This document shows positions 1 through 20,705 of a stretch of 23,365 bases of DNA, in pieces; the first letter of the stretch is position 1, and each line of letters opens with the position of its first letter. The translations under genes were made by a program, and so were the position numbers. The DNA comes from a virus. Location: positions 1 through 23,365 of the IMG/VR virus record IMGVR_UViG_3300021960_000535; one strand, written 5' to 3'. The notes under the pieces were generated by a model that saw only the letters and a program-made list of their open reading frames with translations, had not been told where the DNA came from and ran no database searches.

Positions 1-1362
1 TGCCTCACCACCTTTTGATCCGTGTATCGTGGACAGTTTGATCCGTGGTGCGCGTCTAATGTTTTCTTGACGACGTAAACACATCCGTACATACGTCTTC
101 TTGGTAGGTTCAATATTTTCTAATGCTTCAAACCAAGGTAAGTCTTTATCTAATTTTAATCCGTAGCTTTCTTTCAGCATATCAAAGGTAAACATTTTAT
201 CTTTATCTACATTCTTCATTCCTTTAAATTTTTTATCAACACCTGTATTTATTTTTACGTAACTATAAAATGATTTAACTCTTTTAAGATCTAATTCTTT
301 TCCTCTGCGAATATCTTCCCATGCCAATATAGCTTGATGTACAAGTTTACTGATAGATGTCTTATCTCCTCGTTCATAAAAATAACCATATGTTTTTAAT
401 TGATCTTCTAGTTTATCTAATCGGTATCCATCTCTTGCTAATACTAACCACTCTCCCTCTTTCATTTTTTGTAACTGCTCAACCGGATGTATATTTACTT
501 GACCTTTTTCATCACGCGCTGTCCATTCTTTATCCACTCTATCTTTCACACGCTTAATTAACTTATTTGCTTTTGCATGAATAGACTCTGCTAATCTATA
601 TGACTTGTTTAGTATGGTCCGTGTTCCGTCCATATTCATCAAAAACTCTGGTCTTGCACCCGCCCAACGATAGATTGCTTGATCATCATCCCCGGCTATG
701 TACACACGCTTTGCTTTTGTAAGGACACGCTCTACCATTTTCCATTGTAACCAACTAAGGTCTTGTGCTTCATCTACAATCACCACATCAAAGTTTGGCA
801 TAAGGTCATAATGTTTTTTATTGAAGTCTACAATCATGTCAGTCATGTCGTATTTGTTTCTTTCTATTTTGTAATCATGCAAGGACTTATCAATATATTT
901 TAGCTTGCGTAAACCACCCTCAACGTTTCCAACTTCGGGATAATTAAAATAAGCTTCAGATGTTAGTCCTCGTATCTTTGCACCGTCAATGATTTGCATG
1001 AACACATCATCGGGAAAACCGGCACCATATTTTTTTATGTTGTTATTTGGATTACTTAATTTTATCTGTGTTTTATTAGATACTCTTTTGTAATCTTCAT
1101 CACTCATGATGTTTTCTTCTTTTAAATGTAACTCTCTGTACGCTAAACTGTGTAGTGTGCGGAAGTTTGAGAAATCTTTTGAGTCATAACTTAATTGTGC
1201 AATAGCACGAGACAATGCTTCATCTGCCGCTTGATTGGTAAATGCAAGATAGGCGATCCTGTGTGGGGGTACATTGTTTTCACGCAACTCTTTTTCTACA
1301 ATGCGTAGTAAGTGTGTTGTCTTACCTGTTCCCGGCGGTCCAAATATTATATTTCTATCCAT
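1..1362 (-). CDS. UvrD/Rep-like SF1 DNA helicase, 3'-truncated by window edge
   Basis: ATP-dependent DNA-unwinding enzyme, probably for phage replication or repair. Reading the minus strand from the ATG at 1362 gives 454 codons without a stop up to base 1, so the C-terminus lies outside the window. Visible superfamily 1 motifs, in order: Walker A GPPGTGKTT (residues 8-16), motif Ia AFTNQAADE (about 40-48), Walker B VVIVDEAQD (193-201), motif III GDDDQAIYRW (224-233), and near the edge the motif V-like STIHGSKGGEA. These are classic UvrD/PcrA/Rep signatures. The ATG lies inside the end of the nuclease gene (16-nt overlap), so it is the distal gene of the leftward replication operon and probably translationally coupled. 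The family assignment is firm; the exact role in the phage is inferred. Confidence 0.9.
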   Translation of the reverse strand, partial: MDRNIIFGPPGTGKTTHLLRIVEKELRENNVPPHRIAYLAFTNQAADEALSRAIAQLSYDSKDFSNFRTLHSLAYRELHLKEENIMSDEDYKRVSNKTQIKLSNPNNNIKKYGAGFPDDVFMQIIDGAKIRGLTSEAYFNYPEVGNVEGGLRKLKYIDKSLHDYKIERNKYDMTDMIVDFNKKHYDLMPNFDVVIVDEAQDLSWLQWKMVERVLTKAKRVYIAGDDDQAIYRWAGARPEFLMNMDGTRTILNKSYRLAESIHAKANKLIKRVKDRVDKEWTARDEKGQVNIHPVEQLQKMKEGEWLVLARDGYRLDKLEDQLKTYGYFYERGDKTSISKLVHQAILAWEDIRRGKELDLKRVKSFYSYVKINTGVDKKFKGMKNVDKDKMFTFDMLKESYGLKLDKDLPWFEALENIEPTKKTYVRMCLRRQENIRRAPRIKLSTIHGSKGGEA

Positions 1363-2006: not shown

Positions 2007-2218
2007 TTTATATTTAGCTCAGCTTCTGTTTCAATCCATACTTTAGCACCACAGCTCAATGGTTTTTCTGGCCTATAAACAACTTTTGATTCACCTAAAA
2101 TAGAAACCTCGTGACAATAGGTATTTTTCTTACCTTCTTTAATCGTTATCACAGGTTCATTTGTTCCATGTTTTTTATTTGCTCTTACCTTATGCATATT
2201 AACATGTATTCTTTTCAT
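2003..2218 (-). CDS. Conserved small phage protein, unknown function
   Basis: A 71-aa protein with no recognised domain. It is basic at the N-terminus (MKRIHVNMHKVRANKK) and looks like a compact beta-rich fold with HEVSILGESKVVYRP and a closing CGAKVWIET. Similar short proteins occur near replication genes in marine phages, as far as I recall, but I know no function. The start is set by the TAATG junction with the primase stop at 2218; a second in-frame Met is residue 8. The stop overlaps the nuclease start by 4 nt. Only two cysteines are present, so a zinc site within one chain is unlikely. Confidence 0.75.
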   Translation of the reverse strand: MKRIHVNMHKVRANKKHGTNEPVITIKEGKKNTYCHEVSILGESKVVYRPEKPLSCGAKVWIETEAELNIK

Positions 2219-3771
2219 TAAAAAGGTGTCTCCTCACTCATGTCTGGAGTATCAAACTCATCAGTGCTTTTTCTAATCCAAGGTACATACCAAAGATAAG
2301 CTGTCTTACCTTTTATTTTTCTTCTTACATCTCCGCCGTTCAATTTACTTCTAATATGTGCCAACATCTCTGTAGCAGTAAAATCTTTAAAATCATTTCT
2401 TTTCAAGAACTTATGTAACCATTCTGATTTAAAATATGCAGTGTCCCTATTTACTTTACCTTCTTTTTCTTCGTATTCTCTTTCTTGAAACAATGCTTTA
2501 CCCATATCTACTTCATCTATGTGTTCTGCTGAACCTTGATCTTCTAAGAAACGTTCAAGTAAAGTTTCAAATCTACCTGTCTTTGTAATCTCATGCGGCA
2601 TCTGTATAACAACAACAGTTTCCATTAACATTTGCATTCTACTGTCCCAATCAGCCGGTCTCATCATGTTAGGGTAGAAATTTATTGCATTCATACACGC
2701 TTGTCTAAATTTGTGTTGATTATACAATTGATCGGTCGATAATTTTAATCTTCTACCATCTATATTTAAAAACCAAGTTGACTCATCACTTTCATATTTT
2801 GTTAAATCACTAATATCATGTTGTATTTCTGTAGCACCAACTCCATACTGTTTACCTTTACATTCTGTTTTTTGACAAACTGCACACATAGGTTGATCTT
2901 TACATTTGTATTGATAATCTTTTTTTTCATGCTGTCTTATTGTTTTAACAACTTGCTGTGCCGGTAATGGTGTTTCCATATACTTATGATTAAACTCTTC
3001 TATTTTTGCTTGCCATTCCTCCGGCCATTTTCTTTTTGCATATACTGCGTATTGGTACAATGTGTTATCTCTTCCACCCGGTGGTATGCCTTGCGACATT
3101 AATATAGATAGACAAGGTGGTCCATCTTTTAATTCAAGATCATTCTTTCTTTTTACTTTAAATTCTTTTAAACTTTTTTCGGTCGTACAATAACGATCAT
3201 ATAAAGCGAAGAAATCATCAAGGCTACTAGCATTACCATCGTCGCTATAGCCATGACGCATAGAATCATCACCACCGTGATAGGGAAGATTAAGAAAGTT
3301 TCCAGTGTCTCCACGATCTGCTTGTATCTCAATTTGTTTTGGAAATATTTCACAATTTGCATAACCTAATTCTCCTGCCCACTCCTGTAATTTATCACGC
3401 ATAAGTTTAGCTTGTACAGGTTCTTTTGTAAATAAAAATACATGTGCACCACCACTCTTTGATCTACACATAACAACTGGTAATTCTAATTCTCTTATCT
3501 TTCTTACAATTTTTTTATGATCTAATGGATATGTATCTATATCTATACAACCCCATATGCATTTTGAATCATCACGTATTGGTATGATACCAAGACTAGG
3601 ATCTTTACCCTCTATGTGGTCTATCCATAATTGATCTGTAACAGGTGCTTTTTTTATGAAAGCTTGTCCGCCTGCTTTACCATTTACTAGTTGCCCATCA
3701 CTTTTATATTGACCATAGGCACGGTCCAATCCATAGAATATAGTTTTAAATTTCTTTATTCTTTCTTCCAT
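2218..3771 (-). CDS. Archaeo-eukaryotic primase (TOTE-type AEP), phage replication primase
   Basis: A 517-aa protein that likely makes primers, and perhaps extends them, at the phage fork. The N-terminal AEP core shows the metal-binding CIDIDT (D77, D79), the SKSGGAH block with H110, EIFPKQ (141-146) and the GNFLNLPYHGG segment (157-167). This pattern matches AEP primases of the TOTE group. Residues about 215-285 look like a helical primase C-terminal region (IPPGGRDNTLYQYAVYAK). C290, C296, C299 and C304 form a zinc-binding cluster, and residues about 440-497 resemble a winged helix. The last residues, MSEETPF, form an acidic tail ending in Pro-Phe like the SSB tip. The ATG has AAGGA 7 nt upstream and follows a GC hairpin. 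No helicase domain is fused; separate SF1 and SF2 helicases are nearby. Confidence 0.8.
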   Translation of the reverse strand: MEERIKKFKTIFYGLDRAYGQYKSDGQLVNGKAGGQAFIKKAPVTDQLWIDHIEGKDPSLGIIPIRDDSKCIWGCIDIDTYPLDHKKIVRKIRELELPVVMCRSKSGGAHVFLFTKEPVQAKLMRDKLQEWAGELGYANCEIFPKQIEIQADRGDTGNFLNLPYHGGDDSMRHGYSDDGNASSLDDFFALYDRYCTTEKSLKEFKVKRKNDLELKDGPPCLSILMSQGIPPGGRDNTLYQYAVYAKRKWPEEWQAKIEEFNHKYMETPLPAQQVVKTIRQHEKKDYQYKCKDQPMCAVCQKTECKGKQYGVGATEIQHDISDLTKYESDESTWFLNIDGRRLKLSTDQLYNQHKFRQACMNAINFYPNMMRPADWDSRMQMLMETVVVIQMPHEITKTGRFETLLERFLEDQGSAEHIDEVDMGKALFQEREYEEKEGKVNRDTAYFKSEWLHKFLKRNDFKDFTATEMLAHIRSKLNGGDVRRKIKGKTAYLWYVPWIRKSTDEFDTPDMSEETPF

Positions 3772-3791
3772 AATGTATTCCTTTCAATTAA

Positions 3792-3809
3792 GGGGCGGTT
3801 GCCCGCCCC
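3792..3809 (-). terminator. GC-rich hairpin between ssDNA-binding candidate and primase
   Basis: A 7-bp perfect GC stem, GGGGCGG (3792-3798) pairing with CCGCCCC (3803-3809), around a 4-nt loop TTGC. It stands out in AT-rich surroundings, 8 bases after the stop codon of the upstream gene. On the leftward transcript no clean U-run follows (TTAATTGAAAGG), so it may be a partial terminator or attenuator, or an mRNA-stabilising hairpin, rather than a full stop. It would set different expression levels for the upstream genes and the primase. Confidence 0.55.
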
Positions 3810-3816
3810 ATGTTAT

Positions 3817-4584
3817 TTAAAATGGCGTCTTCTCCTCAGTAGAAGATTCTTCTTCATACTTGACTTTTACTTCACCTTTGTTCACGCTTTCAGCAAATGC
3901 TTTAGCGATACTGTAAAGGTTAGCATCTTCAAGTTGAGACTCCCTACTAATCTCCCAACCATACCAGTTACCCTTATCATTACCTTCTTTGGTAGTTTTA
4001 AGGCGGTAGTAATGGCTATAAGATGGTGGAGTAAACAATCCGTTCTTACCATTTAGTTTTAAGTTTAGTAACATAGAGTTCCACTTTCTACTCTTTTTAA
4101 GCTGTGTAGCTTTCATTGTAATCAAAGCCGGAGTAGAATCCCCGTCCTCAGTTACAAGTAGTACATAGTGGTTGCCACACGTCTCAACATAGTTTCCGTT
4201 TTCTAAACGATCTTTGTTGTTATCATCTCGTGTAGTTTTTGTAAGTATGTCACTTGAAGCATCGTAGACATTTATCGGAGCACCCGATCCCTGTCCTCTG
4301 TCAGCCCACTCAACGTATTGACGTTGATACGCACAAGGTAGAACACGAATACCATTTGATCCATCATACAGATCATTAGTCACTGTATTAAAAATCATTC
4401 CGGCTTTTGCACCTTCTAGTTCTTCGAGTTCTGGTGATAACTGCATCAAGACTTTTAATCTTGGTGTCGCTAAGTCATCTTGCGATATGTTTTCAAGGCC
4501 GCTATGTGCGTCCCCTTCCATCAAATCCAGACTTAGTGCAGGTAGTTGACTTTCTTCTTTTTTTACAACATTAGCTTTTGCCAT
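3817..4584 (-). CDS. Putative phage ssDNA-binding protein
   Basis: A 255-aa protein that I do not match firmly to a named family, though similar proteins recur in marine phage replication regions. The central part (about 60-215) alternates short hydrophobic strands with aromatic and charged residues (VLPCAYQRQYVEWADRG, MKATQLKKSRKWNSMLL, HYYRLKTT, NWYGWEI), as expected for an OB-like nucleic-acid binding fold. The C-terminus is acidic and ends EEESSTEEKTPF. An acidic tail with terminal Pro-Phe is the hallmark of bacterial SSB and resembles the acidic, Phe-ending tail of T7 gp2.5. The position just before the primase fits. The ATG has AAGGAG 6 nt upstream. The function is inferred from the tail and context rather than from a recognised domain. 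Confidence 0.6.
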   Translation of the reverse strand: MAKANVVKKEESQLPALSLDLMEGDAHSGLENISQDDLATPRLKVLMQLSPELEELEGAKAGMIFNTVTNDLYDGSNGIRVLPCAYQRQYVEWADRGQGSGAPINVYDASSDILTKTTRDDNNKDRLENGNYVETCGNHYVLLVTEDGDSTPALITMKATQLKKSRKWNSMLLNLKLNGKNGLFTPPSYSHYYRLKTTKEGNDKGNWYGWEISRESQLEDANLYSIAKAFAESVNKGEVKVKYEEESSTEEKTPF

Positions 4585-4597
4585 ATGTTTCTCCTTT

Positions 4598-5155
4598 TTA
4601 CTTTTTACTTATTTTAGTTTCGGCGCCAACAAAGACTCCGAAAGTGTCCATCGGCAACTCAGTACCCTCAATGATTTGTTCTCTAACAAACGCTTTGAGA
4701 GTCATGGGTTCCACCCAGACCTTCTGTGTGTGCTCATATCCTAGTGAATTTATGTTGTCAATAAATTCATTTGCAGATTGATCCTCACCTTTACCGAACG
4801 TAGCAGATACTTGATTTTTTATCAAGTCGCCGTGTCCGTTATCACGAAGCCACTGAAACGCTTCTTCGCGATGTCTTACTGGAATAGAAGCCTGTACTAA
4901 TTGTTTCACCTTTACAGATGAACCATCTTTTAGTGTCAAACTTTCTAATCCTAATTCTGACATTTTTGCCGGAATTATTTCTTGTGACAATTTACGAGCC
5001 GCTTTTGCTTTTGCTTTTAACTGCTCTTCTAATTGTTTCATTTCTTCTTCTAGTGACGCTTGTTCCGCGCACAAATCAGCCATTTCTTTTAAAGAATTAT
5101 CGCCGATCGTTGGCATGGTTACATCACTTTCCATTTCGTCTAATAAGTTACTCAT
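4598..5155 (-). CDS. Conserved coiled-coil phage protein of the replication region
   Basis: 185 aa from the ATG at 5155. I chose this start over the in-frame ATG at 5188 because AGGAG lies 9 nt upstream and the ATG overlaps the end of the preceding gene (8-nt overlap), as is usual here. Residues about 20-60 form a charged coiled coil (SLEEEMKQLEEQLKAKAKA). A mixed domain follows, with MSELGLESLTLKDGS, then WLRDNGHGDLIK and FGKGED. The end, LKAFVREQIIEGTELPMDTFGVFVG, looks conserved in phage homologues I recall. It may be an accessory replication or recombination protein, but nothing catalytic is visible. Thirteen bases separate it from the ssDNA-binding candidate. Confidence 0.75.
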   Translation of the reverse strand: MSNLLDEMESDVTMPTIGDNSLKEMADLCAEQASLEEEMKQLEEQLKAKAKAARKLSQEIIPAKMSELGLESLTLKDGSSVKVKQLVQASIPVRHREEAFQWLRDNGHGDLIKNQVSATFGKGEDQSANEFIDNINSLGYEHTQKVWVEPMTLKAFVREQIIEGTELPMDTFGVFVGAETKISKK

Positions 5156-5534
5156 CAATTTCTCCTCTCTCATATAAGTTAACTTCAATCGGATAGTATT
5201 TATATTCTCTCCTATCCCACTTCAAGCATTTAAATTTACCACGATTTTGTGTGGCGGCTATAGCACATGCAATACCAATAGCAGACGGATCACCCATTAA
5301 TAAAAGATAGTCATCATCACTAAAATTTCTTAGCTTATAATTTAATCTTTTCACAGTAGGACCCGTACTCAAAACCAACTGAGAACCTTCTGGTAATAGT
5401 AATTCTAATTTACCAAACTTTTCTGCACTAAGTATATTTCTACCCGGTACCTCTTGAACTACAAAAACTGTACCTTCACCAAGAGGTTGAGTTAAGTGAT
5501 TGATACCAACCATACCACCAAATTTATCTACCAT
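5148..5534 (-). CDS. Conserved phage protein, unknown function (first gene of leftward early operon)
   Basis: A 128-aa protein without a recognised domain. Its middle segment, LVLSTGPTVKRLNYKLRNF followed by DDDYLLLMGDPSAIGIA, reads as a compact alpha/beta fold. A later CLKWDRREYKYYPIEVNLY looks like paired strands. The N-terminus carries GGMVGINHLTQPL, resembling the C-terminus of the late protein ending at 7166. The ATG at 5534 has AGGAG 4 nt upstream and sits directly downstream of a predicted leftward promoter, so it is probably the promoter-proximal early gene. It overlaps the next gene by 8 nt. The function may be regulatory or replicative, but that is only a guess from position. Confidence 0.75.
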   Translation of the reverse strand: MVDKFGGMVGINHLTQPLGEGTVFVVQEVPGRNILSAEKFGKLELLLPEGSQLVLSTGPTVKRLNYKLRNFSDDDYLLLMGDPSAIGIACAIAATQNRGKFKCLKWDRREYKYYPIEVNLYERGEIDE

Positions 5535-5620: not shown

Positions 5621-7057
5621 ATGGATTATAAGTTTAAGACAGAGCCATACGCTCATCAATTACACGCGTTAGGTGCAAGTTATAACAAACAAAACTTTGC
5701 TTTGTTCATGGAGATGGGCACAGGTAAATCTAAAGTATTGGTTGATAATATTGCTATGCTTTATGATAAAGGTAAAATAAATGCGGCGCTAATCATTGCA
5801 CCAAAAGGTGTGTATAGAAACTGGGAGCGTCAAGAAATACCTACGCATATGCCAGAGCATGTGTTGTACAATGTGGTGACATGGTCGCCTGCTACAACAA
5901 AGAAACAAGATAAAGAAAACAGGAAACTATTTCGACACGGTGAAGAACTCACTATATTCTTGATGAATATAGAAGCGTTCAGTACAAAAAAAGGTTTAGA
6001 TATAGCTCAACGATTTTTATTAGCACATCAAACACTGATGGCAATTGATGAATCAACGACGATAAAATCTCCCACAGCATCACGAACCAAAAATGTATTG
6101 AAATTACGCGATCACGCAAAGTATAGGCGGATATTGACAGGGTCGCCAGTAACGAAAAGTCCATTAGATTTGTATACACAGTGCTATTTCCTCGATCCAT
6201 TATATTTAGATTTCTCGTCTTATTATACTTTTAAGAACCGTTACGCAATGATGGTGGACCGCAACGTCGGTAGTCATAGCTTTAAATTAGTGACAGGATA
6301 TATACGACTAGATGAGTTGAATTCTAAGCTAGATAGCTTCTCATACCGGGTACTCAAAGAAGATTGTTTGGATTTACCAGATAAGGTGTACATGAAAAGA
6401 AGTGTTCCGTTGTCCCCGGAGCAAGTAAAAGCATACACGGAAATGAAAAAGCATGCGTTGACAGAGCTAGAAGGCTCACAAACTACAGCGGCTAGTGCCT
6501 TGGCACAGATGATTAGACTACATCAAATTACATGTGGACATTTAGCTACCGATGATGGTGAGGTCAGAACATTAAAGAATAATAGAATAAGCGAACTACT
6601 CAACATATTGGAGGAAGTAGATGGAAAGGTTATTATTTGGGCGGTATACCGTCATGATATTAAAGAAATTACAAACATACTTTCAGAGAAATATGGAAAG
6701 GACAGTGTGGCGGCTTTTTTTGGTGATACTGCTGATAGCGATCGTCAAGATATTGTTACTCGCTTCCAAGACAGAGAAAGCCCTTTACGATTTTTTGTGG
6801 GTAATCCAAGAACCGGAGGGTATGGTCTCACTCTTACTGCTAGTAACACTGTTGTGTATTACAGTAACAGCTACGATTTAGAAATTAGATTGCAGTCAGA
6901 GGACAGAGCACACCGTATTAGTCAAACAAAAAAGGTAACGTATATTGATTTGATATCGGATGGCACCATAGATGAGTTCATTGTGAAGAATTTGCGTGGT
7001 AAAATCAACTTAGCAACAAAAGTACTAGGTGAAGAACTCAAAAAATGGCTAATTTAA
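5621..7057 (+). CDS. SNF2-like SF2 DNA helicase/translocase
   Basis: A 478-aa ATP-dependent DNA translocase or helicase, probably used in phage replication or recombination. Visible SF2 motifs: Q-like AHQLHAL near residue 11, Walker A MEMGTGKS (30-37), motif Ia IIAPKGVYRNW (58-68), motif II DEST (143-146), motif III LTGSP (172-176), motif V TGGYGLTLTASNTV (398-411), and motif VI QSEDRAHRISQTKKV (425-439). The arrangement is that of a minimal SNF2 core with no extra domains, about the length of phage SNF2-like helicases. The ATG has AGAAGG 9 nt upstream. It is the only plus-strand gene in the window, divergent from the replication operon and convergent with the late operon, so it has its own control. 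Family assignment firm. Confidence 0.92.
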   Translation: MDYKFKTEPYAHQLHALGASYNKQNFALFMEMGTGKSKVLVDNIAMLYDKGKINAALIIAPKGVYRNWERQEIPTHMPEHVLYNVVTWSPATTKKQDKENRKLFRHGEELTIFLMNIEAFSTKKGLDIAQRFLLAHQTLMAIDESTTIKSPTASRTKNVLKLRDHAKYRRILTGSPVTKSPLDLYTQCYFLDPLYLDFSSYYTFKNRYAMMVDRNVGSHSFKLVTGYIRLDELNSKLDSFSYRVLKEDCLDLPDKVYMKRSVPLSPEQVKAYTEMKKHALTELEGSQTTAASALAQMIRLHQITCGHLATDDGEVRTLKNNRISELLNILEEVDGKVIIWAVYRHDIKEITNILSEKYGKDSVAAFFGDTADSDRQDIVTRFQDRESPLRFFVGNPRTGGYGLTLTASNTVVYYSNSYDLEIRLQSEDRAHRISQTKKVTYIDLISDGTIDEFIVKNLRGKINLATKVLGEELKKWLI

Positions 7058-8110: not shown

Positions 8111-8655
8111 TACATCGCTCCTAAAGGATTTTCTAATGCTAGTTTAATTCTTTTATCCATCTTTTCTTCTAGTTCTTTTTGTGCTTGCTTGAGTCTATCT
8201 TCTAATTTTTTCATGTCATCTTCTAAAGAATTAATTGTTTCTTTTAGATCTCTTGCATTATCTCTAGAGTCTTCTTTTGTTTGTTGTTCTACATCATTGA
8301 CAATTGTTTCTATACGTCTTACGTCTTGACGAAGATCATTCTTCAACTCGTTTGCCACATCAGACACCAAAGAAATTTCCTGTAACATCATGGTCATTTC
8401 TTGTGTAATCATCTCAACTTCATTTTGAATTAACTCTGTTTTACTTGTTAGCTCTTCTTTAGTAAGATCTAATCTCTTATCAAATCCAGATAAGTCCGGC
8501 GCGACGTATTCCTGTATTTGATCTTTCATGTTGAGATAGTCTTTGTAAAATTCAAAGCCACCCCATAAAGCACCACCTGCTGTAGTTAGCGCTGTTAAAA
8601 TTACAAATATTTTACCACCGCGAAATTTTATTCCGCCTACTTCTACTTCTGCCAT
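8110..8655 (-). CDS. Membrane-anchored coiled-coil protein (i-spanin-like topology)
   Basis: A 181-aa protein with a short basic N-terminus (K10, R12, K15), one transmembrane helix at about 16-37 (FVILTALTTAGGALWGGFEF), then a long charged coiled coil to the end with heptad-like stretches such as NDLRQDVRRIETIVNDVEQQ and LEDRLKQAQKELEEKM. The positive-inside rule predicts N-in with the coiled coil outside the cytoplasm. This is the topology and size of an inner-membrane spanin, but no lipoprotein partner is seen, so the role is inferred. Similar N-termini occur in other marine phages, from memory. It overlaps the upstream gene by 13 nt and ends at a TAGTG junction with the 23-aa ORF. Confidence 0.75.
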   Translation of the reverse strand: MAEVEVGGIKFRGGKIFVILTALTTAGGALWGGFEFYKDYLNMKDQIQEYVAPDLSGFDKRLDLTKEELTSKTELIQNEVEMITQEMTMMLQEISLVSDVANELKNDLRQDVRRIETIVNDVEQQTKEDSRDNARDLKETINSLEDDMKKLEDRLKQAQKELEEKMDKRIKLALENPLGAM

Positions 8656-10376
8656 TGTTGCATCACCATTTCGTTCATTAGCCCGTCACTTCCTGCGAAC
8701 AAGAAATATCCAGCTATATTGTTATCAGATATAACTGTGTCTGGCAAACTCTCATCTGTAAAGAAGCCCGCCCTATCATTCAGTTGTTGTTGTGAGTCAA
8801 AAAAGGTCTTGGTATTACCCAACACTTGCATCACAATAAGTGTTTTTAATTGATTTTGAGAGTCATATCTACCTTTATCTCCCATCTTTTTCACTATTTT
8901 TTTAGCTGCTTTTTCTTTTTTAGACTCTGGTTTCTTTACAGGTTTCTCTTCGGCTTCACCCTTATCCTCTGTTTCTTCCATATCTTCTGGTTGATCCTCA
9001 TCTGCATCAGCCTCTGGTGAGCCTTTCTCCGGTTCTGGCTCTTTGTCCATATCTTCTTTAGGTTCGTCAGCAGGCTCATCAGCAGGTTCTGGCTCAGCTT
9101 CGGTTTCTGTTTCATTTACTGGTTCCTCCATTTCTGGTTCGGGTTCCGTGGTTGATTCTGGTTCTACCTCTATCTCTGGTTCCATTTCTGGTTCAGACAT
9201 GTCCATTTCTGGTTCTGGCATCTCTGTATCCATATCCATTTCTATCTCTGGCATTTCCATATCGGGTTCTGGTAACTCCATATCGAAGTCCATTTCCATC
9301 TCCATCTCCATTTCAACACTTGCCATCTCCATTTCTGGCATATCAATCTCCATTTCTGGCATATCCATTTCAAAGTCCATCTCGAAGTCCATTTCAAAAT
9401 CCATCTCTATCTCAACAGTTTCGTATGATACATCCATATCTGATTCTTCAAACTCTGGTTCAAAATACATATCACCGTCTGGTGCTTCTATAATATCATT
9501 GTGTTCAAATATATTCTCAACAATATCTATAACCTCTGTCTCCGTACTACCACCGTAGGCTACCCACATCTCTACACTGGTGATAGATTGCTGTACGATT
9601 GTATTGATTGTGTTGTATAATACGTTTACCGTCACATCATCAAAGAGTGGTCCGATAGCCAAGTTTATATCACGGCCACCAATTTCAATAATAAGTGTTG
9701 TAATTTTACCACTAAAATCAAAACCACCAGCATACTCTTGAAAACCACTAGCTACACCAGATTCTGATAGTATGTCTGTACCGCTAAAGACAGATGTATT
9801 ACCATTCTTACCGGTAATGTGCATGTAGATACGATCCTCCGCATCTTGTTTGTCTACCTTAATTGTATAGTTAGTTTTACCGCCGTACTCTATATCAAGA
9901 TCCGATATGTCCACGGTGTTAATAAAGGTTGTACCCATACCGTCAACACCCATGGTGGAGGTAATACTACCACTACCTGTTATAGAAGCACATTTGTCCG
10001 TGCCTAACTGTCCACATCCTGTGCCAGATGGCATACTAGCAGGGCCTTGACCGCCCCAATCCGAATCCATGTCACCTTCTTGACTTGAGCCAACATAGCC
10101 ATTGTCGCCGTCAAGAATATCACCACTGTCTTCATTAGTGACAGTCGTTGTCGTTGTTGTCGTTTCAGTCGTTGTTATTACCGTATAGCCATCAGCTTCA
10201 TACTCAATGGTTTCTGTAATGGTTTCGTCTATGATATCTTCAATAGTAGGAGTACATAGTCCAACTGTATCTGTAGAACAGTCTACCGCTTGACTAGAAA
10301 ATGAAAGGAATACCGAGAACAGTAACGCCGGTATACATAGCCATAGCCGCAATAACAAACTTTGTAAATTGATCAT
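8643..10376 (-). CDS. Exported acidic protein with Met/Glu/Asp repeat domain
   Basis: A 577-aa protein with a clear Sec signal peptide (residues 1-30, cleavage likely after SSQA). A Thr-rich tract at about 67-80 follows, then a beta-rich domain (about 130-275) containing TIKVDKQDAEDRIYMHITG. Next is an extremely acidic region from about 300 to 475. Its first part (325-398) has 22 Met alternating with Glu/Asp, as in EMDFEMDFEMDFEMDMPEM. Its second part is Glu-Pro rich. A short Lys-rich block (478-500) precedes a globular C-terminal domain (505-577). Cys pairs C33/C41 and C121/C129 could form disulfides outside the cytoplasm. The first 83 nt overlap the upstream gene, and AAGGA sits 8 nt before the ATG. 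I do not recognise a named family; it may act in the periplasm or on the virion. Confidence 0.75.
   Translation of the reverse strand: MINLQSLLLRLWLCIPALLFSVFLSFSSQAVDCSTDTVGLCTPTIEDIIDETITETIEYEADGYTVITTTETTTTTTTVTNEDSGDILDGDNGYVGSSQEGDMDSDWGGQGPASMPSGTGCGQLGTDKCASITGSGSITSTMGVDGMGTTFINTVDISDLDIEYGGKTNYTIKVDKQDAEDRIYMHITGKNGNTSVFSGTDILSESGVASGFQEYAGGFDFSGKITTLIIEIGGRDINLAIGPLFDDVTVNVLYNTINTIVQQSITSVEMWVAYGGSTETEVIDIVENIFEHNDIIEAPDGDMYFEPEFEESDMDVSYETVEIEMDFEMDFEMDFEMDMPEMEIDMPEMEMASVEMEMEMEMDFDMELPEPDMEMPEIEMDMDTEMPEPEMDMSEPEMEPEIEVEPESTTEPEPEMEEPVNETETEAEPEPADEPADEPKEDMDKEPEPEKGSPEADADEDQPEDMEETEDKGEAEEKPVKKPESKKEKAAKKIVKKMGDKGRYDSQNQLKTLIVMQVLGNTKTFFDSQQQLNDRAGFFTDESLPDTVISDNNIAGYFLFAGSDGLMNEMVMQQWQK
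9132..9413 (-). repeat. In-frame low-complexity Met/acidic coding repeat
   Basis: This stretch encodes residues 322-415 of the exported acidic protein. The strongest part is tandem copies of a 12-base unit encoding E-M-D-F, followed by degenerate units encoding E-M-E, D-M-P and P-E-M. The unit varies at third positions (GAC/GAT, TTC/TTT), so the array is old or under protein-level selection rather than freshly expanded. Open frames on the opposite strand here are by-products of the repeat. Confidence 0.8.
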
Positions 10377-19661: not shown

Positions 19662-19943
19662 TTAACAATTCCACTTTCTAAGAGACTTATTTATCCTAGA
19701 ATTCGGGTCTCTAGCTGTTTTTGCACTTGTTAAACGTTTTTTCATACCTGTCATTCGTGCACAAAATGACTTACGTCTTTTAGCAGCTTTTGAGCCTTTC
19801 TTCAACTTAGAAGGCTTTGTTGTAACAGCGGTCTTTAACTTTGATCCGGGGTTCGCGGCACGATAAGAAGCAACACCTTTTCGGTTTAATCCACCCGATT
19901 TGCTTTTACCTGCTTTACGTTGCCATGCTGGAGTCTTAGCCAT
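19662..19943 (-). CDS. Small basic phage protein (DUF6321-like)
   Basis: A 93-aa protein very rich in Lys, Arg, Ser and Gly. It shows AWQRKAGKSKSGGLNRKGVASYR, then GSKAAKRRKSFCARMTGM, and ends SLRKWNC. This order (AW.RK.GK...GGLN.KG, RRKSF.ARM.GM, LRKW) matches a family widespread in marine phages that I believe is listed as DUF6321; I could not confirm the name. The function is unknown. The charge suggests nucleic acid contact. TAATG start junction; followed by a 25-nt gap. Confidence 0.75.
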   Translation of the reverse strand: MAKTPAWQRKAGKSKSGGLNRKGVASYRAANPGSKLKTAVTTKPSKLKKGSKAAKRRKSFCARMTGMKKRLTSAKTARDPNSRINKSLRKWNC

Positions 19944-20209
19944 TATGCCCTCTTCTTCTTTTTCTTCGCAAAGGTTGCGACGTTCTTTGGTTTAGGTCCA
20001 GTGTTCCCTGCTGCACGCTTACGTGCTACAGCAGAACGTTTTTGGCCCTTGGACATGGATCTAGCTTTAGCTAACGGTACACATTTAGGATAGCCTTTAC
20101 GCTTTTCTCCTTTGCTTCGACCACAAGGTTTATAACCACCTTTGCCGTCGGGTGCACCAATGTCTACCCATTTTTCTTTGACCCAAGCTCTTAGACCTTT
20201 TTTAGCCAT
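19943..20209 (-). CDS. Small basic phage protein (DUF5872-like)
   Basis: An 88-aa protein. It begins MAKKGLRAWVKEKWVDIGAP, continues with YKPCGRSKGEKRKGYPKCVP (two cysteines about 14 apart) and SMSKGQKRSAVARKRAAGN, and ends in a poly-Lys tail (AKKKKKRA). The KEKWVDIG...CGRS.GE.R.GYPKC order matches a small phage family I believe is DUF5872; the name is from memory. Two Cys could take part in metal binding in a dimer. Function unknown. TAATG junctions on both sides tie it to its basic neighbours. Confidence 0.75.
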   Translation of the reverse strand: MAKKGLRAWVKEKWVDIGAPDGKGGYKPCGRSKGEKRKGYPKCVPLAKARSMSKGQKRSAVARKRAAGNTGPKPKNVATFAKKKKKRA

Positions 20210-20487
20210 TAGTATTTTTTTGTCTTCTTACGTTTCTTTTGCATAATAGCACCACAGCCTTTTGCAATGCCACCTTGAGCGTAACTAGAAATTCTTTTTC
20301 TGTCTTGTGATATTTTATTGAAGTCTAAAACTTCTCCACCACCAGCCATTTTCTTCTTTTTCTTTTTACCGCCCGGTGTTACCTTACCAGAACAAACAGC
20401 AGAAGCGTACATGTTTGCGTAAGCTGACGGATAAACATCAAACTTACGTTTTGCTGCTGCTTTCCCTCTTGCACAAAGCTTAGCCAC
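20209..20487 (-). CDS. Small basic phage protein with YPSAYANMYAS and GGIAKGCG motifs
   Basis: A 92-aa protein starting with GTG (TAGTG junction with the upstream gene). It shows MAKLCARGKAAAKRKFDVYP, then SAYANMYASAVCSGKV, a run of six lysines, GGGEVLDFNKIS, and a C-terminal YAQGGIAKGCGAIM followed by KKRKKTKKY. Three cysteines are present (C5, C32, C78). Homologues with the same N- and C-terminal motifs are, from memory, frequent in marine and freshwater phages. Function unknown; the charge points to DNA or RNA contact or packing within the virion. Confidence 0.75.
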   Translation of the reverse strand: MAKLCARGKAAAKRKFDVYPSAYANMYASAVCSGKVTPGGKKKKKKMAGGGEVLDFNKISQDRKRISSYAQGGIAKGCGAIMQKKRKKTKKY

Positions 20488-20705
20488 TACTTCTTACCTT
20501 TTTTCTTTTTCATTTTAGCAGCAGTAATAATATCGCCTCTAGTTATTTTTTTAGGATCGCCATACATAGCGGCTAGTTTTTTCTTTTTCATTTTCTTCTT
20601 TGGTGTTCCACCATCTTTGTACATCATGCCACCACCCATCATTTTTTTAACAGGTTTATCATCACCTCTTCTTACGAGTTTTTTTGATTTCTTTTTCATT
20701 TTCAT
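20487..20705 (-). CDS. Poly-lysine small protein
   Basis: A 72-aa protein with 26 Lys and 3 Arg (about 40%) and only five acidic residues. It contains KPVKKMMGGGMMYKDGG, two runs of consecutive lysines, and a short ordered-looking segment, MYGDPKKITRGDIITAAK. A strong AGGAG, overlapping the upstream stop codon, lies 6 nt before the ATG at 20705. It resembles a protamine-like or unstructured nucleic-acid binding tail. It is the first of four consecutive basic genes. No family recognised. Confidence 0.72.
   Translation of the reverse strand: MKMKKKSKKLVRRGDDKPVKKMMGGGMMYKDGGTPKKKMKKKKLAAMYGDPKKITRGDIITAAKMKKKKGKK

Follow-up and report, generated by a model that had tools for sequence, protein, structure and literature searches.

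A C-terminal Pro-Phe tip of SSB type on a gp34-family protein and the adjacent AEP-type primase of a marine phage

The window analysed here is a 23,365-base virus record from a marine phage, in which 31 open reading frames (ORFs) were called mechanically (greedy calls). A minus-strand cluster is transcribed in the order gp32-like gene, gp33-like gene, 255-aa protein (gp34), primase, 71-aa gene, nuclease-like gene and UvrD-like helicase. The relevant features are as follows:

1-1362, minus strand: 5' part of the UvrD-like helicase gene, cut by the window end (complete in L041, 10410-11936); candidate tail partner
2218-3771, minus strand: AEP/TOTE-type primase, 517 aa, assigned from PF22548, phrog_21866, a PDB profile match and invariant residues
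2221-2271, minus strand: primase tail, residues 501-517, predicted to be disordered (TDEFDTPDMSEETPF region; pLDDT 64-65)
2221-2226, minus strand: primase tip Pro-Phe (sequence, homologue ends and codons)
2230-2235, minus strand: GAGGAG, codons of the Glu-Glu in the primase tail, Shine-Dalgarno (SD)-like for the overlapping downstream gene with ATG at 2218 (sequence, GAG/SD enrichment)
3792-3809, strand given as ".": GC hairpin with a 7 bp stem between gp34 and primase (RNA fold z=-4.1; conservation)
3817-4584, minus strand: gp34-family protein, 255 aa, candidate phage ssDNA-binding protein (PF23977, phrog_2402, model pLDDT 90)
3820-3864, minus strand: gp34 tail, residues 241-255, predicted to be disordered (pLDDT 57-58), ending EEKTPF
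3820-3825, minus strand: gp34 tip Pro-Phe (sequence, homologue ends and codons)
4598-5155, minus strand: gp33-family gene (DUF7307), conserved neighbour (profile match, synteny)
5148-5534, minus strand: gp32-family gene, conserved neighbour (profile match, synteny)
5621-7057, plus strand: SNF2-type helicase, candidate tail partner (PF00176, E=4e-23; beside gp32-33-34 in most relatives seen)

The UvrD-like helicase gene directly follows the primase in 53 of 71 window-clade loci, and in the window the two are separated by the 71-aa gene (phrog_8676) plus a zinc-finger, NinG/HNH-like gene (1347-2218). The hairpin, found in 69 of 71 clade members with a GCAA loop on the coding strand, is terminator-like, yet the T tract on that strand is weak; it may possibly result in more gp34 than primase mRNA. 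Elsewhere, the window encodes a 577-aa protein (8643-10376) containing an extended, repetitive run of Glu, Met and Asp (MEMEMEMDFDMELPEPDMEMPEIEMD...), and four consecutive small Lys/Arg-rich proteins of 72-93 aa (19662-20705).

On the basis of profile matches, the primase is an AEP/TOTE-type PrimPol. It matched PF22548 (AEP-TOTE; E=1.5e-14, 54.6 bits vs. a curated cut-off of 27), phrog_21866 primase (E=3.7e-98), and PDB entries 7nqf and 7nqd (E=2e-13), which we take to be CRISPR-associated PrimPol. Residues D77, D79, S106, H110, C290, C299 and C304, corresponding to the catalytic DxD, an SxH-type motif and zinc-type cysteines, were invariant in 74 homologues. The catalytic core and the conserved acidic, His and Cys residues are thus common to the phage primase and its solved AEP relatives, whereas an extra C-terminal domain and an SSB-like tail are found in the phage proteins.

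The 255-aa protein encoded just upstream is a clear member of the uncharacterised Pam3 gp34-like family, as it matched PF23977 (Pam3_Gp34) over its full length (E=7e-65, 219.5 bits vs. a curated cut-off of 27) and phrog_2402 (E=9e-68). No match to the bacterial SSB profile PF00436 was obtained for this protein, no meaningful sequence relatives were found in the PDB, and no gp34 was found in the genome_contigs collection. Its predicted structure (pLDDT 90) displays five long strands, of which the third and fourth are separated by a helix, an OB-fold-like order (strand-strand-strand-helix-strand-strand), followed by the disordered tail. A fold search of this model against the PDB placed RPA and bacterial SSBs at the top, but weakly (E 0.02-0.3), and the viral library BFVD yielded one distant match named SSB (E 3.6e-4, TM-score 0.29). 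PF00436 SSB was also absent from six records of related phages, some of which may be incomplete, which makes gp34 the leading SSB candidate. Conversely, in Alteromonas phage ZP6 gp34 lies beside a separate protein that matches an SSB PHROG and ends in DDDIPF, and this counts against the assignment. From the predicted fold, with its low TM-scores, we consider gp34 a probable OB-type ssDNA-binding protein of the phage itself, and treat it as a candidate.

Both proteins end in the same tripeptide. The primase C-terminus (...STDEFDTPDMSEETPF) finishes in DMSEETPF and that of gp34 (...KVKYEEESSTEEKTPF) in STEEKTPF, so that the shared -TPF tip noted in a sequence-only reading of this DNA is exact, and no other ORF of the 31 ends in -PF. 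Outside both families, such an end occurs in 1 of approximately 380 ORFs from the window and four related phage genomes; at this frequency, two adjacent -PF ends by chance would be on the order of 1e-5. In the structure models both tails are disordered, the last two blocks of the primase having pLDDT 64-65 vs. >90 over most of the protein. In bacterial SSBs, the C-terminal tail (SSB-Ct, DDDIPF) combines a disordered, variable linker with a conserved terminal Pro-Phe tip, a design common to the window tails; a disordered tail with a conserved terminal hydrophobic residue was found for gp34 and primase alike. The phage version differs from SSB-Ct in that gp34 does not belong to PF00436, its acidic stretch is weaker, the tip is shared with a primase, and in other phages the tip becomes -IV, -PY, -EF or -EL. 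In the open-access literature searched, we found no paper on a phage primase that shares an SSB-like tip, nor one on an SSB-type tip in the gp34 family, where it is not known to have been reported.

A survey of 382 gp34/primase gene pairs from related phages showed that the last residue of gp34 stays aromatic or aliphatic while the preceding linker varies freely, and that the terminal hydrophobic residue of the primase is kept in most clades and absent in HTVC023P-like phages and Nanhaivirus. In the window clade (89 pairs), gp34 ends in -PF in all 89 and the primase in -PF (78), -EF (6) or -VF (5). The DSL-LC04 clade has mostly -PF on gp34 and -SPF on the primase (-IPF and -SPF in DSL-LC04); the 023Pt clade has -PY on gp34 (72/72) and a primase ending in Phe; the HTVC027P clade carries -IV on both proteins in 67 of 67 pairs, and in HTVC027P these are the only two such ends among 86 ORFs. 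In the HTVC023P clade gp34 ends in -PF in all 66 pairs (-VPF in HTVC023P), and the primase tip is absent in every one. Other gp34/primase ends include -SEF/-AEF in Kokobel2, -PEL/-PDL in L520, -GNY/-PNY in L499 and -PFA/-PFV in L128. The most diverse set, the MW202510-like clade, whose gp34 proteins are roughly 30-45% identical to that of the window, has the last residue as the sole conserved tail position, with an entropy of 1.6 bits in gp34 vs. 2.8-3.5 at positions -2 to -14, and of 1.3 bits in the primase vs. 2.5-3.2. The codons of the tip vary synonymously (CCG, CCT or CCA for Pro and TTT or TTC for Phe), which indicates selection on the protein.

The alignment of homologues therefore upheld the terminal residue as conserved; acidity did not prove general, and some lineages can do without the primase tail, given that the HTVC023P-type and Nanhaivirus primases have no tip. 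Averaged over the last 10 primase residues, net charge is -2.4 in the window clade (in the window itself, acidic residues directly precede -PF) vs. +1.0 in the DSL-LC04 clade, where the residues before -SPF are basic, so that the acidic -PF tail holds for the former and not as a trait of the primase family. Many members of the window, DSL-LC04 and MW202510-like clades also carry an F-x-[TVIS]-P element starting 11-15 residues from the primase end, and the primase tag may thus be bipartite (tip plus F-x-[TVIS]-P). The tip pair is real, selected and interpretable.

Some relatives display further arrangements. Small proteins encoded downstream of gp34 in L135 (5037-5429, Pam3 gp35) and L656 (3481-3768, ZP6) end in -DDIPF, hence neighbours other than the primase can bear the tip too. 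In phage 023Pt_psg01 (L131, 979-3346), gp34 ends in DSTPY and the primase in SKTPYQIENF, with TPY five residues in from the end, which would fit an extension of the tail. The gp34 relatives L469, L485 and L516 have Arg-Arg ends (AARRR, SFRR) in place of a hydrophobic residue, and their primases end in -HI, -PF and -QI.

The best reading of these tails, to which we give an even chance, is that both tips are short docking peptides that alternately occupy a single pocket on a replisome partner. gp34, as an OB-type ssDNA binder with a disordered tail ending in a hydrophobic, usually Phe, anchor, would gather this partner on ssDNA, and the AEP primase, having evolved a tail of the same design, would be passed to that site, or swapped in there, whenever priming is required. 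The sequence-only reading had already proposed that both proteins dock on one partner; the tips, their conservation, the selection on the protein, the tail disorder in the models and the order of the genes agree with it, while ssDNA binding by gp34, the pocket, the partner and the hand-off are the parts that we infer, with about even odds for a partner common to both tails. The partner would most likely be phage-encoded, namely the family A DNA polymerase, or the UvrD-like or SNF2 helicase.

The closest parallel is phage T7, in which the SSB gp2.5 (...DEDGDF) and the primase-helicase gp4 (...SNDTDF) each carry a flexible acidic tail that terminates in Phe, as in the window phage; the earlier suggestion that an SSB-type tip on a primase would be unusual was therefore overstated. 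The tail and terminal Phe of gp4 contact T7 DNA polymerase (PMC12230644, PMC12593628) and, according to Ghosh (2009), the terminal Phe of gp2.5 is needed for strand displacement by that polymerase. The two systems differ in that the window primase is a stand-alone AEP enzyme whereas gp4 is a TOPRIM primase-helicase, gp34 and gp2.5 belong to different families, and the window-type tip is usually -PF. Moreover, PolA of the window phage has 626 aa vs. 704 aa in T7, and a rough alignment showed no clear equivalent, in this shorter enzyme, of the T7 docking site, which is a polymerase insertion. By analogy, the gp34 and primase tails would represent a new form of the two-tail design of T7, assembled from unrelated proteins. 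As regards the helicases, the acidic tail of T4 gp32 is described by Perumal (2013) as contacting the UvsW helicase; gp34 is commonly near an SNF2/UvsW-like helicase, a candidate for such a contact. Human PrimPol, another AEP primase, is coupled to SSB through a C-terminal RPA-binding motif, as presented in PMC5457501, but its peptide binds SSB, whereas that of the phage primase resembles the tail of SSB itself.

A more specific version of the docking model, which we advance tentatively, is a private docking code, in which the SSB-like protein and the primase would present a common C-terminal key to a pocket encoded by the phage, and the two proteins would be re-keyed together in different lineages (from PF to IV, EL/DL, NY or PF+1). 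The pairs IV/IV, L/L, NY/NY, FA/FV and EF/EF suggest joint change across lineages, although this is not statistically established given the phylogeny: matching of the tips was not significant when the phylogeny was simulated (P 0.21-0.34, for identity of the last two and of the last residue), and a clustered permutation on the last two residues was borderline (P 0.008-0.08).

Another explanation is that the primase tail docks on gp34 itself. Autoregulation by the protein's own tail has been proposed for other SSBs; a core pocket or DNA groove of gp34 would likewise be covered by its own tail, and the copy on the primase would recruit this enzyme to gp34-coated DNA. Matched tips (PF/PF, IV/IV) would then arise without a third protein, and gp34 could keep its tip where the primase has lost its own; however, the gp34 model leaves the tail disordered and undocked, and we regard this explanation as unlikely.

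Equally doubtful is host mimicry, in which the two tails would imitate host SSB to capture its interaction partners (PriA, RecO, RecJ, chi, etc.) or to compete for them. The window tips do resemble host tips, since SAR11 SSBs end in DDEIPF, DDDIPF and DDPPF (SAR11 may not be the host of the window phage), as do the gp34 ends of Nanhaivirus (DDEVPF) and Pam3 (DDPPF). Nevertheless, the HTVC027P lineage infects SAR11 and carries -IV on both proteins although the sampled SAR11 SSBs end in -PF, which makes host SSB partners unlikely as the general target; furthermore, HTVC027P and HTVC023P share the same SAR11 host strain with -IV vs. -VPF on gp34. The -PY ends of the 023Pt-like gp34 and the basic residues before -SPF in the DSL-LC04 primase are also unlike SSB-Ct. 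Competition for host partners, raised in the sequence-only reading, is hence the less supported option; a host SSB partner is possible for the -PF phages, and the distribution of tips suggests a phage-encoded one.

Constraints at the DNA level act on the primase end as well. GAGGAG, which encodes the Glu-Glu, lies 11 bases before the ATG of the next gene, whose start codon shares its last base position with the primase stop codon; in window-clade primase tails 76% of Glu codons are GAG vs. 25% in the gene body, and an SD-like motif occurs in the last 24 nt of 36 of 54 primases vs. 8% of body windows. Part of the acidity is thus a ribosome-binding site read as protein. That the whole primase end is a by-product of this site and of the overlapping start (TTTTAATG), forcing both E-E and F, is very improbable, as it covers E-E only: the synonymous variation of the Pro and Phe codons, together with four Ser codons (AGC, AGT, TCG, TCA) in the DSL-clade tip, rules out such a cause for Pro-Phe, and gp34 has the same tip with an SD-like motif in 2 of 49 ends and no tight overlap with the next gene. 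Recent copying of 3' ends between the two genes was also rejected, given that their codons differ widely across relatives and that in Acinetobacter-type phages both ends are acidic-hydrophobic though the genes lie approximately 5-6 kb apart.

Taken together, our results offer a testable function for a gene family with matches in at least 504 phage records, and the partner could be found by peptide pull-down with the tails FDTPDMSEETPF (primase) and EESSTEEKTPF (gp34), the -IV phages of the HTVC027P type providing a natural tip swap. They suggest that the T7 logic, with two tails addressing a single replisome partner, evolved anew in unrelated proteins; if the docking code holds true, its re-keying would keep the replisome of the phage apart from the SSB network of its host.
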